Assembly (NCBI GenBank): GCA_031276855.1
Contig: JAISMH010000159.1
Span: 1 to 40,208, forward strand
Source: Synergistaceae bacterium
GTDB lineage: Bacteria > Synergistota > Synergistia > Synergistales > Aminobacteriaceae
Reading direction: 5' to 3'
DNA: 40,208 nucleotides
The notes under the pieces are model-generated. The model saw only the letters and a list, made by a program, of their open reading frames with translations. It was not told where the DNA came from and did not search any database. The translations under genes were made by a program, and so were the position numbers. Positions 13,669 to 18,297 of this stretch are shown piece by piece; the stretch's first letter is position 1; every line of letters begins with the position of its first letter.

Positions 13669-15150
13669 ATGCAGGCCAGAAAAACAGCTTTCTATCACAG
13701 CAACGCCGCGCAAATCATAGGTGACATCCAGGATCCATTGAACATCTTGTTGGATGCCGTTTTGGAAAGTTCTTACGACGGCATTTACATAACCGACGGC
13801 AATGCGAATACCATTAGGATCAACACGTCTTACGAAATCATCTCCGGCCTCAAACGATCTGACGTGATCGGCAAGAACATGCGCGACCTGGTTGCCAGCG
13901 GTCTTATCTCCAACTCCGGGACCTTGCTCGTGCTGGAAAAACGGCACCCCATCACCCTCGAACAAAAATTCAAAACGGGGAAACAAGCCGTTATCACCAG
14001 CACTCCCACTTTCGACGACCAGAACAACATCGTCATGGTCGTGACCAACGTCCGGGACATCACGGAGATGTGGGAATTGCGCAACCAATTGAACAAAGAA
14101 GAAGAACTGACGAAACGCCAGCTTTCGGAGTTGGAGATCATACGCAAACAGATTCTGGGCGTCGGCAAGATGATTGCCGTGGATCAAGCGATGCTCCAGA
14201 CCATGCTGGTGGTCAACAAGGTCGCGCCTATGGACACCACCGTGCTCCTGTTGGGCGAAACCGGCGTGGGCAAGGAAATCATCGCCTCCTACATCCATCA
14301 GAACAGTCTGCGCAAGAACCGTCCAATCATCAAAGTGAACTGCGGGGCGATCCCCACGCAGCTTGTGGAAAGCGAGCTGTTCGGCTATGAGGACGGCTCC
14401 TTCACCGGCGCCAAAAAAGACGGCAAGATGGGGTTGCTGGAGATCGCCAACGAGGGAACCGTGCTCTTGGACGAGATCGGCGACCTGCCCCTCGACGTCC
14501 AGGTCAAACTGCTGCGGTTGTTGCAGGAGAAGGAAATCCAACGGATCGGATCCACGGTTTCGCGGAAGGTGGACGTGCGCATCATCGGGGCCACCAACCG
14601 GGATCTGCAAAAAATGGTAGAGAGCAAGGAGTTTCGCAAAGATCTGTATTATCGCCTGAACGTGGTCCCCATCACCGTGCCGCCGCTGCGGAAGCGTCCC
14701 GGCGATATCCTGCCGCTGGCGGAGGCTTTTTTGGCGGAGTTGAACCTCCATTACCATTTTCAAAAAAAATTTACCCTGTCGGCTGTTTACGAACTTCAGT
14801 CCTACGAGTGGCCCGGGAATGTCCGCGAGCTTCGCAACGTCATCGAGAGGGCCGTCATTTTAAGCTCGGAAGAGACCATACAGCCGTGCGATCTGGGGAT
14901 TTTCAAGCCAAAACCCGCAGAAACCGTAGAAGCCGCGGCGTTGTCGCTTTCGGATCAAACGATCGATTTGAAACAAATACTGATGAACATAGAACGCGAT
15001 TATATCGACACGGCCTACCGCGTGCACCGCAACGTCCGAAAGGCCGCCGGAAGCCTCTCCATGGATGCGGCCACATACGTCAGGAAAAGGAAAAAATACG
15101 GTGTCCCGGGAGCTTTTCGTGACAATATCGTGAACAACTTCAACGAGTGA
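13669..15150 (+). CDS. sigma-54-dependent transcriptional activator (PAS-AAA+-HTH)
   Basis: Enhancer-binding activator of 493 residues that would remodel sigma-54 RNA polymerase. An N-terminal PAS-like sensor spans about residues 25-130 (LLDAVLESSYDGIYITDGNAN). The AAA+ domain has Walker A GETGVGKE at residues 196-203, the sigma-54 contact loop GSFTGA at 243-248 (a variant of GAFTGA that keeps the threonine), Walker B VLLDEIGDL, and the arginine-finger region FRKDLYYRLNVVPI. A C-terminal helix-turn-helix follows (VRKAAGSLSMDAATYVRKRKKY). The start is ATG at 13669, eight bases after GGAG. Its base composition is less GC-rich than its flanks, hinting at separate origin. It stands alone; no sigma-54 promoter was found near by, so its target is unknown. 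Confidence 0.92.
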   Translation: MQARKTAFYHSNAAQIIGDIQDPLNILLDAVLESSYDGIYITDGNANTIRINTSYEIISGLKRSDVIGKNMRDLVASGLISNSGTLLVLEKRHPITLEQKFKTGKQAVITSTPTFDDQNNIVMVVTNVRDITEMWELRNQLNKEEELTKRQLSELEIIRKQILGVGKMIAVDQAMLQTMLVVNKVAPMDTTVLLLGETGVGKEIIASYIHQNSLRKNRPIIKVNCGAIPTQLVESELFGYEDGSFTGAKKDGKMGLLEIANEGTVLLDEIGDLPLDVQVKLLRLLQEKEIQRIGSTVSRKVDVRIIGATNRDLQKMVESKEFRKDLYYRLNVVPITVPPLRKRPGDILPLAEAFLAELNLHYHFQKKFTLSAVYELQSYEWPGNVRELRNVIERAVILSSEETIQPCDLGIFKPKPAETVEAAALSLSDQTIDLKQILMNIERDYIDTAYRVHRNVRKAAGSLSMDAATYVRKRKKYGVPGAFRDNIVNNFNE

Positions 15151-15314
15151 CAAAACTTCCGTCCCATCATGAGCATACAAGGGAATATTTTATATCCGAC
15201 GGCAAAGAACGAGATGTCGGTTCATCAGTTTACGAACCTGTTTCAGGGACAAGTGGGTGCTTTTCGCGACAACCTACGCCAATCTCAACCACCAACCAGT
15301 TATTCGACTTCACA
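15151..15314. other. intergenic sequence, nothing recognised
   Basis: Sequence between the sigma-54 activator and the Rpn-like fragment. Short open frames exist, but none shows a ribosome binding site or a recognisable motif. Base composition is lower in GC than flanking genes, as for decayed DNA. Confidence 0.4.
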
Positions 15315-15317
15315 TTA

Positions 15318-15500
15318 TAAACGAATTGAGAGAACGTCAAGACATGCCGCAGCTGTCTGTCACTCGTCCGTGATAATGCTTGAACGGATACTCGACTTCC
15401 TTCGGCAGTTTGCGGACTTCAAAATAGTACATCACCATTCTGTCCGATAAAATTTCGCGGCGCTTCATGAAGCATCACGGTAATTTGGGGTATCAGAAAA
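15318..15500 (-). pseudogene. fragment of an Rpn-family (PD-(D/E)XK transposase-like) nuclease gene
   Basis: On the minus strand one frame reads REILSDRMVMYYFEVRKLPK and then stops after CGMS; an upstream frame gives DTPNYRDAS, which would join it across a frameshift. This resembles the segment of Rpn/PD-(D/E)XK transposase-family proteins in which an LTD...LEIHFLELPKL-type strand follows the nuclease core. Only about 50 codons are left, without a start or a complete domain, so it is a relic at most. The match is from memory of the family pattern and is tentative. Confidence 0.38.
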
Positions 15501-15503
15501 TCG

Positions 15504-15532
15504 TTGGCTTTCCCGCGGCTTTGTCGTAATAT
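15504..15532 (+). promoter_or_regulatory. promoter reading into the crRNA-like unit and towards nrdJ
   Basis: TTGGCT (15504-15509) and TAATAT (15527-15532) are separated by exactly 17 bp. The predicted start is at about 15540, one base before the first CRISPR-like repeat segment. No better promoter is visible for nrdJ. Confidence 0.55.
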
Positions 15533-15540
15533 GTTTATCA

Positions 15541-15627
15541 GGCGCGTGAGTTGAAACTGCCGGCATCTCTCGCAAATGCGGGCAGTTTTATGTTTTATTG
15601 CGCCCATACGGGCGCGTGAGTTGAAAC
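15541..15627 (+). CRISPR. CRISPR-like remnant or crRNA-like unit: partial repeat, 39-nt spacer-like segment, full repeat
   Basis: A 17-base segment GGCGCGTGAGTTGAAAC occurs at 15541-15557 and again at 15611-15627. At the second site it ends a 31-base sequence (15597-15627) with the palindrome GCGCCC-ATAC-GGGCGC followed by GTGAGTTGAAAC, which is the architecture of type I-C CRISPR repeats. The 5' half of the first copy is absent and a promoter occupies its place. The 39-base segment between them forms a hairpin with a T-rich tail. There is no longer array and no cas gene in the window. It could be the last trace of an array, or a solitary crRNA-like RNA of the CreA type. Confidence 0.5.
15554..15596 (+). 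terminator. hairpin with T-rich tail inside the crRNA-like unit
   Basis: AAACTGCC (15554-15561) pairs with GGCAGTTT (15581-15588); after one mismatch GCAT pairs with ATGC around a nine-base loop. The tail TTTTATGTTTTATT follows. The AAAC end of the repeat is part of the stem. As an intrinsic terminator it would yield an RNA of about 50 bases or attenuate transcription into nrdJ. Confidence 0.55.
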
Positions 15628-15675
15628 CCCCTGCGGGGCGCTACGAGATTTGAGTGTACAGAAGGAGTGTCCGCA

Positions 15676-18297
15676 TTGACCCGTTCTCTGAAAGAACGTT
15701 TTGCCGTCCATTTCCCCCCCGGTGCCTTCGAGACCCCGGCCGTGCCGCGGCTGTCCGAAAACGCGATGTGGCTTCTGGAGCAGCGCTACTTCGTGACGCG
15801 GTACGACGAAAGGGTGCGGGGAACGCGCAAAGAGAGGACCTTTGAAGAGTTCGCCCTCCGCGTCGCACGCACGGTCGCGAGCGCGGAGACGCTTTACCTC
15901 GACCCGGCCGATCCCGGCTCTCTGGAGTGGCTTCAAACTCTGGAGAACAACATCGTGAGCGATATTCTGAACCGGCGGTTCCTTTTCAACTCTCCCTGCC
16001 TCTTCAGCGCGGCGGCGGGCCTCACCGTCAAGCCCGAATTCGCCTCAATCATCTACCGGCCCGCCGAGGGAATGACCTGGGAGGACTACGCCCGCCTCCG
16101 CGAAGCCCGCACGAAGAACCAGCAGCTTTTCGCCTGCTTCGTCATCGGCGTGCCCGACAGTATCGAGGGGATCTTCGACTCCGTCAGGGACGCCAGCATC
16201 ATCAGCAAGTTCGGCGGAGGCGTGGGCGGCAACTTCGGTTGGCTGCGCGAAAACGGAGCGGAGATCAACGGAGGCACGGGCGGCAAGGCGTCGGGCCCCG
16301 TTTCCTTCATGGAGACGTGGAACACGATGGGAGCCGTCGTCGTGCAGGGCGGGAAACGCCGCGCGGCCCTCATGGGAATGCTGTTCGACAACCACCCGGA
16401 CATTTTCCGCTTCATCGACTCCAAAACCGAGGACGGCAAACTGTCCTATTTCAATATCTCCGTCGCCGTTTCCGACAAGCTGATGGCGGCGGCGGCGGCC
16501 AACGGGGACTTCGACCTGATTTCCAGAAACGACGGCTCCGTCAGGGAGACCGTCAAGGCCCGGGAACTCCTGGGCCGCATCTGCGAAAGCGCTTGGAAGC
16601 GCGGGGACCCCGGAATATTTTTCATCGACCGGGCCCAGCAGGACAACATTCTCAAAATGAGCAAAGAATGGATTATCGAGTCCACGAACCCCTGCGGCGA
16701 ACAGCCGCTTCCGAACTACACCAGCTGCAACCTCGGCTCCGTCAACGCGGAGGCGTTTGCCGGCACCGGCACGAGCGCCGACGCTCCGGTCGGCTCCGGC
16801 GGGCTCTTCGACTGGGACGCTTTCGCGGATCAGGCGGCCCGATCCATCTACTATCTGGATCTGGTCATCGACGCCTGTTCCTATCCTCTGGAGAAAATCG
16901 AGGAGCGGACCAAAAAGATCCGCCCCGTGGGGCTCGGGATCATGGGTCTCGCGGACGCGGCCATCCTTCAGGGAATCGCTTACGGCGGGGAGGAGTTCCG
17001 CGAATACTGCGACCGGCTCGGCGGCGTGCTCGCGGCGAGCGCGCTTTTCACGACGGCCCAGATCGTGAGCGGTGTCGGCAAGGAGCCGTTCCCCGAGCAC
17101 GCGCTGGTGAAACAGCTTTTCGACGCATTCCGCTCCCAGGTGGAGGGCGGAGAGAGACTCTTCAGCGAGGGCGTGCTGTTCAGCGACGAGTGGTTTCAGC
17201 TTCTCTCCGGGGAGGAATACGACCAGCTGCTGGACCGGATGCGCCAATCGGCGACGATTCCCCGGACGCTCGTCAACACCCTCGCGGAGTTCAGAAAACC
17301 GGGACGGGGGTACTCTTTCGAAGAGGCCAGGACGGCCCTGCACAGCCTGGTACACGGCCGGGTGCGCAACAGCCGCCGCCTTTCCATCGCGCCGACGGGC
17401 TCCATTTCCATGATCCTCGACGCCAGTTCGGGGATCGAGCCCAACTTCGCGTGGTCGTGGAACAGGCACATCGTCAAGATCGACGGCTCCGGCACGGAAG
17501 AGCGCGAATTCTGGCACAAGCTCCTCTCCAAAGAGCAGCGCGAGGAGTATCGGAAAACGGGCCGCCTCTCCGACGCGGTTTACGCGACGGCCTACGACAT
17601 CACGACGGAACAGCACGTGGATGTCACGGGCGCGTTCGCCCGCGTGGTGGATTCGGGCGTCAGCAAGACGGTGAACCTGCCGTTCGGCGCCGCCGTCGAG
17701 GACGTCCGGCGCGTCTACGAGGAATGTTACCGCCTGGGCTGCAAGGGCATCACCATCTACCGGGACGGCTCCCGCTCCTATCAGCCCATCGAGATCAAGA
17801 AAGCCGACGACGCCAGGACGTCCGGGCGGGTCAAGGAACGGCCGGGCCTCGTGGTGTTCGGCAAGACGATCAAGGAGAGTACGCCCTGGGGCAGTATTTA
17901 TATCACGCTGAACTTCGACGGCAACGACCCCTTCGAGATTTTCATCACGGTCGGCAAGAGCGGCTCGGAACTGAAGGCCATGACGGAGGCCCTTTCCAGG
18001 GCGATCTCCATCGGGCTCCGGTCCGGCAGCAAGCTCGAAGACTTCATCGACACGCTGAAGGGACTGTCCGGCAAGGAGTACTGGATGTTCGGCTTCGACG
18101 ATTCCCGCGTCGCCCGCTCCATCCCGGACGCCATAGCCGTTCTGCTCGAAAAGCTGGTCGAGGGCCCGCGCGGGAAGGGCGACCCGCTCCCCGCGACGCA
18201 CGAAGGGGGGGCCCTCTGCCCGGAGTGCAAGTCTCCGATGGAGATGATCTCCGGCTGCGCGTACTGCTTCAGCTGCGGCTACAGCCCCTGCAAGTGA
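15676..18297 (+). CDS. nrdJ: vitamin B12-dependent (class II) ribonucleotide reductase
   Basis: Makes deoxynucleotides using adenosylcobalamin as radical source, with or without oxygen. The protein of about 873 residues shows the class I/II barrel motifs: KFGGGVGGNFGWLRENGAEI, the finger-loop NPCGEQPL with N338, C340 and E342 (radical cysteine and flanking active-site residues), and the phosphate-binding RRLSIAPTGSISM. A C-terminal cysteine-rich tail (CPECKSPMEMISGCAYC, then FSCGYSPC) probably includes a zinc site and the redox-active pair. The start is placed at TTG 15676, eight bases after GAAGGAG; GTG at 15667 overlaps that site and is less likely. It is followed closely by bioY. Confidence 0.96.
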   Translation: MTRSLKERFAVHFPPGAFETPAVPRLSENAMWLLEQRYFVTRYDERVRGTRKERTFEEFALRVARTVASAETLYLDPADPGSLEWLQTLENNIVSDILNRRFLFNSPCLFSAAAGLTVKPEFASIIYRPAEGMTWEDYARLREARTKNQQLFACFVIGVPDSIEGIFDSVRDASIISKFGGGVGGNFGWLRENGAEINGGTGGKASGPVSFMETWNTMGAVVVQGGKRRAALMGMLFDNHPDIFRFIDSKTEDGKLSYFNISVAVSDKLMAAAAANGDFDLISRNDGSVRETVKARELLGRICESAWKRGDPGIFFIDRAQQDNILKMSKEWIIESTNPCGEQPLPNYTSCNLGSVNAEAFAGTGTSADAPVGSGGLFDWDAFADQAARSIYYLDLVIDACSYPLEKIEERTKKIRPVGLGIMGLADAAILQGIAYGGEEFREYCDRLGGVLAASALFTTAQIVSGVGKEPFPEHALVKQLFDAFRSQVEGGERLFSEGVLFSDEWFQLLSGEEYDQLLDRMRQSATIPRTLVNTLAEFRKPGRGYSFEEARTALHSLVHGRVRNSRRLSIAPTGSISMILDASSGIEPNFAWSWNRHIVKIDGSGTEEREFWHKLLSKEQREEYRKTGRLSDAVYATAYDITTEQHVDVTGAFARVVDSGVSKTVNLPFGAAVEDVRRVYEECYRLGCKGITIYRDGSRSYQPIEIKKADDARTSGRVKERPGLVVFGKTIKESTPWGSIYITLNFDGNDPFEIFITVGKSGSELKAMTEALSRAISIGLRSGSKLEDFIDTLKGLSGKEYWMFGFDDSRVARSIPDAIAVLLEKLVEGPRGKGDPLPATHEGGALCPECKSPMEMISGCAYCFSCGYSPCK

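Follow-up and report, generated by a model that had tools for sequence, protein, structure and literature searches.

The DNA just upstream of nrdJ in the 40,208-nt stretch analyzed here (the window), from a Synergistaceae bacterium of the termite-gut type, carries one and a half CRISPR repeats around a single spacer-like segment. Our preferred reading, to which we give a probability of about 0.58, is that this unit is a decayed type I-C mini-array that has come to lie in the nrdJ 5′ leader, and that the hairpin formed by its spacer acts as a terminator or attenuator, with no guide function needed. The origin of the unit as an array remnant is well supported, and the attenuator role is suggested by predicted folding and by the leaders of related genomes; the hairpin more probably tunes the nrdJ transcript than guides the CRISPR machinery. 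The unit is flanked by a sigma-54 regulator gene on one side and nrdJ on the other and comprises the following features:

15504..15534, + strand: promoter-like site, TTGGCT-17-TAATAT, with a predicted start at about 15541 (prediction only)
15541..15557, + strand: repeat 1, 3′ half only, GGCGCG plus the 11-nt handle TGAGTTGAAAC; the 5′ half is absent
15552..15590, + strand: terminator- or attenuator-like hairpin, TGAAACTGCCGGCAT...ATGCGGGCAGTTTTA, with the tail TGTTTTA
15558..15596, + strand: spacer-like segment, 39 nt, forming the hairpin and then a T-rich tail
15597..15627, + strand: repeat 2, near-complete type I-C repeat, 31 nt, ATTGCGCCCATACGGGCGCGTGAGTTGAAAC
15628..15661, + strand: gap of about 34 nt that separates repeat 2 from the ribosome-binding site of nrdJ, possibly left over from a second spacer
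15676..18297, + strand: nrdJ, B12-type ribonucleotide reductase (Pfam PF02867, PF12637 and PF00317)

The repeats and the type I-C systems of the genome

The 17-mer GGCGCGTGAGTTGAAAC occurs twice, at 15541–15557 and 15611–15627, 70 nt apart and flanking the 39-base hairpin. No third copy was found in the 2.35-Mb assembly at up to one mismatch, and a search of the window at up to three mismatches returned the same two copies only (shuffle mean 0.15). Repeat 2 has a perfect 6-bp stem, GCGCCC/GGGCGC, and an intact handle, and opens with ATT where the repeats of the family open with GTC. There is no third repeat 3′ of repeat 2, and the gap that follows it is possibly the remnant of a second spacer. 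An earlier note on this DNA had described a repeat, a 39-base spacer-like segment, a hairpin and a 31-base palindromic second repeat, all of which were confirmed in the sequence; it had also described the first repeat as lacking its 5′ half, and only the 3′ 17 bases were indeed found there.

Judged by its sequence, the repeat class is certain to be type I-C. The unit's repeat is of the 32-nt type, with a short G+C stem and a ...TGARTTGAAAC end. An array in a genome of the same family (G024:C132, 32-nt repeats) has the repeat GTCGCGCCCTTCGCGGGCGCGTGAGTTGAAAC, the last 17 bases of which are identical to both copies here (17/17 for repeat 1, which matches repeat 2 equally well) and which shares the GCGCCC/GGGCGC stem with repeat 2. 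The genome itself contains a type I-C operon on contig C58, with cas3 (cut by the contig end), cas5c, cas8c, cas7, cas4, cas1 and cas2. The array end on that contig carries GTCGCGCCCATATGGGCGCG, in which the stem is as in repeat 2 and one loop base differs. A cognate type I-C system for the unit is present in the genome, and the earlier label “type I-C-like” is upheld by the match to the G024 array repeat, the I-C cas genes and the stem of the C58 repeat.

Type I-C cas loci were found at two places elsewhere in the genome, C58 and C36, giving two cas5c genes; the window contig has neither cas1 nor cas5c, which lie on C58 and C36. The C36 locus (L174, G000:C36) is a second type I-C fragment, cas3-cas5c-cas8c, and contig C150 (L162, G000:C150) carries a type I-E cas3-cse1 pair. 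The unit is not a regular array, in which a leader is followed by multiple direct repeats separated by unique spacers: the assembly holds two copies, one of them truncated, and the sequence upstream of the unit shows no likeness to the C58 leader (best ungapped match 37/100). The exact repeat had no match in GTDB genomes or viral contigs, and an Rfam search gave only a sub-threshold hit to CRISPR-DR38 (15.8 bits; the gathering score is 44).

The end of C58 has a peculiarity of its own. On the minus strand of positions 1–70 (L004, G000:C58), the first repeat behind the I-C leader is split into GTCGCGCCC and GTCGCGCCCATATGGGCGCGAC, the latter at the contig end. The 34 bases between them match, at 33/34 positions, a segment of cas5c from this very genome (L004 6490–6523), where they are preceded by TTTC, i.e. 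by a TTC PAM. This is either an aberrant self-acquisition or a contig-end chimera. In the window, the intergenic segment 15300–15378 is repeated at C171 of the same genome (91% identity) and partly at C67, and is either a short interspersed element or a relic. The larger interval 15151–15540 was considered as an insertion-sequence relic and rejected, having no support from Pfam, NCBIfam, plasmids or the genome itself.

The spacer hairpin in the nrdJ leader

The hairpin stem extends into GUUGAAAC of repeat 1, with a minimum free energy of −19.3 to −19.7 kcal/mol. For comparison, we used 171 spacers from the arrays of five relatives. Only 1/171 of these folds as strongly as the segment does when the final 8 nucleotides of the handle are included (−19.3 kcal/mol), and the 39-nt segment is longer than 170/171 of them. 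With a terminator defined as a stable hairpin and a T-run before a gene, the segment qualifies at −18.5 kcal/mol with its tail TGTTTTA, while the single real spacer out of 171 that also does so is weak (−7.1 versus −18.5 kcal/mol). The T-run lies before repeat 2. The terminator-like hairpin proposed earlier for the 39-base segment thus holds up, its folding reading as that of an intrinsic terminator.

The start codon of nrdJ, set by comparison with relatives, is a TTG that follows AAGGAG. Using this terminator definition, we scanned the 200-nt region ahead of nrdJ in 59 relatives, all from outside the genus of the source organism, together with controls and shuffled sequences. Of these relatives, 43/59 have a terminator-like hairpin in that region, compared to 1/59 and 1/59 at positions inside nrdJ, 5/56 at 600–800 nt upstream and 4/59 for shuffled leaders. 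CRISPR repeats were present at the nrdJ leader hairpins of none of the 59 relatives. The hairpins differ widely in sequence, so that their position is shared and their sequence is not conserved. Many end 20–60 nt before the start codon, often 35–45 nt, leaving little room for a promoter between hairpin and nrdJ. At least in part, they may simply be the terminators of the upstream gene.

Most of the nearest nrdJ-bearing relatives are Synergistaceae MAGs, and several are apparently termite-gut bins, judging from isolate names. Several of the termite-clade leader hairpins have CATCGGCCG...CGGCCGATGA in common (examples among L101, L102 and L112–L127). A cobalamin riboswitch (93 bits) is located at 2333–2495 of the window and is not adjacent to the B12-dependent nrdJ.

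Transcription of nrdJ probably starts from the site at 15504..15534, as predicted from its two hexamers. The earlier note had described a 17-bp-spaced promoter; the spacing was reproduced, and the predicted start falls at about 15541. The promoter is weaker than the note's wording implies: the match is 4/6 + 4/6 or 8/12 (the limit of our scan was 9/12), and matches of this quality turn up about 0.7 times per kb of forward strand in the window.

We propose the following sequence of events. The likeliest path is that an array fragment beside the nrdJ promoter lost its leader, its further spacers and half of repeat 1, on the 5′ side. The promoter ending near 15534 would start the nrdJ transcript at about 15541, so that the first parts to be transcribed would be the half repeat and the spacer. 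In the RNA, the spacer and GUUGAAAC of the half repeat would then fold into the hairpin, followed by a U-rich run, and together these would stop part of the transcripts before nrdJ, as a terminator or attenuator. The scrap was probably kept or tolerated because its hairpin occupies the usual place of the nrdJ leader hairpin in the clade and could serve as one. At least three other relatives (G009, G029 and G062) contain I-C repeats that are degenerate or stand alone, and stray array pieces are therefore not rare in this group. Counting against an attenuator are the promoter, which is weak and predicted only, and the competing antiterminator structure, of which none is established. Two properties of the spacer also weigh against the preferred reading: its length, which all but one of the 171 compared spacers fall short of or equal, and its terminator-like character, which is rare in a random spacer, so that a chance remnant would need luck, or selection after arrival. 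If the attenuator reading is true, CRISPR debris has been reused as a cis-regulatory RNA element and not as a guide.

Alternative readings of the unit

The unit could instead be an inert remnant: the scrap would do nothing, its hairpin would be a chance trait of the captured spacer, and nrdJ would be served by an unrecognized promoter elsewhere. The array remnants in other relatives and the weak promoter match agree with this. Yet the one spacer among 171 that satisfies the terminator definition does so far more weakly, and the hairpin lies where most relatives have theirs. We therefore regard inertness as unlikely.

We are more doubtful of the guide reading raised by the earlier note. In its fuller form, a short RNA consisting of the handle, a 39-nt guide and the repeat-2 stem would be made from the unit, and the C58 type I-C Cascade would use it, through partial pairing, to repress a promoter of the host or of cas genes. 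Such a crRNA-like RNA of 70 nt would start with UGAGUUGAAAC and end with GGGCGCG, and a CreR-type target would carry the PAM and guide sequence TTC-TGCCGNCA. Several features speak for this. Repeat 1 has lost its 5′ part and retains exactly the Cas5-binding handle, like the degenerate first repeat of CreA, ψR1 (PMC9458426), and the predicted transcription start is the first base of the half repeat. Genes for Cas5c, Cas7, Cas8c and Cas3 are present in the genome along with the matching repeat stem, and there are CreA RNAs on record that have one handle and end at a terminator (PMC8501985).

However, the unit is unlinked to cas genes, and the 3′ handle of repeat 2 is perfect, whereas ψR2 of CreA has usually lost it. 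The T-rich tail precedes repeat 2, so that many transcripts might never reach it. Nor was a target found. Apart from the unit itself, the assembly has no site at which TTC precedes a match to spacer bases 1–21 at up to three mismatches, and there is no TTC-plus-seed match near the unit (15100–15800), so that a nearby toxin-promoter target of the CreA type is lacking. C58, C36 and the searched part of C150 contain no guide or seed match (C58 ends inside cas3, with the cas promoter beyond it). A TTC followed by a 9-base seed match inside a TetR-family coding sequence was rejected as a target, as a single hit where about 0.3 are expected by chance. The spacer had no match among phage and plasmid records, and neither its core nor that of the possible second spacer matched IMG/VR.

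The predicted RNA is also ill suited as a guide, with handle and seed both paired. The mean unpaired probability is 0.02 for the last six handle bases and 0.13 for the seed, compared to medians of 0.71 and 0.44, respectively, for the crRNAs of the relatives, none of which (0/171) is as low on both. The earlier reading therefore stands as far as the type I-C class, the I-C cas genes and the CreA-like first repeat are concerned, but its guide function is poorly supported on four counts: no TTC-PAM target for the 39-base segment beyond the chance-level TetR-family seed, a handle and seed locked in the hairpin, a T-run before repeat 2, and no nearby cas genes or leader. The alternatives named alongside it, attenuation of nrdJ and decay of an array, each agree better with the data, and one does not preclude the other. 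Two repeats around a spacer and a promoter do not suffice for calling a CreA-like guide; one should first check whether the seed is accessible and whether there is a target.

A less probable reading still is that Cas5c cuts repeat 2 in the nrdJ mRNA leader, making the level or stability of the nrdJ message dependent on the CRISPR system. The stem and handle of repeat 2 are intact in the putative 5′ untranslated region, and the genome has its two cas5c genes. The 100-nt leader has two near-equal predicted folds (−39.6 and −39.0 kcal/mol) that differ in which GGCGC pairs with GCGCCC, so GGCGCG of repeat 1 and GGGCGC of repeat 2 could compete for the GCGCCC arm in a two-state leader. However, the leader fold is unremarkable compared to shuffled sequences (z = −1.5), and the case is built on one genome, from sequence and predicted folds. 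In the relative G009, too, one complete I-C repeat stands alone a short way upstream of a small ORF resembling a ribbon-helix-helix regulator (G009:C134, L041, at about 854), but this genome has no detectable cas5d gene. If Cas5c did cut the leader, the expression of ribonucleotide reductase would be affected by a defence enzyme. A full takeover of the mini-array as the leader of an essential metabolic gene, with the spacer as attenuator, repeat 2 as Cas5c site and nrdJ following the CRISPR state, is likewise improbable.

Comparison with known systems

Compared to the type I-C arrays of Synergistaceae (G024:C132), the unit has the same repeat 3′ half and stem and a similar spacing (70 nt versus mostly 64–69), but consists of one and a half repeats with one long hairpin spacer, has no leader and no linked cas genes, and has changed first bases in repeat 2. 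With CreA (CreTA; PMC8501985, PMC9458426) and CreR it shares two repeats, one spacer, a degenerate first repeat with the Cas5 handle, a possible promoter of its own and a terminator-like end. It differs from them in being unlinked to cas, in having no target or toxin that could be found, in its self-folded guide and in the handle of repeat 2, which is not degenerate.

Solitary repeat units and Racr RNA anti-CRISPRs, of which RacrIC1 is a type I-C example (PMC10651486), likewise have an ectopic repeat downstream of a promoter-like site. Racr, however, is a single ectopic repeat in a phage or mobile element, whereas the present unit has two repeats and a spacer in the leader of a chromosomal housekeeping gene. 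Finally, the unit resembles the intrinsic terminators and attenuators of bacterial mRNA leaders in having a hairpin and T-run between a promoter-like site and a start codon; it differs from these in that no sensor or antiterminator was identified and in that a CRISPR spacer and a portion of the adjoining repeat form its hairpin.
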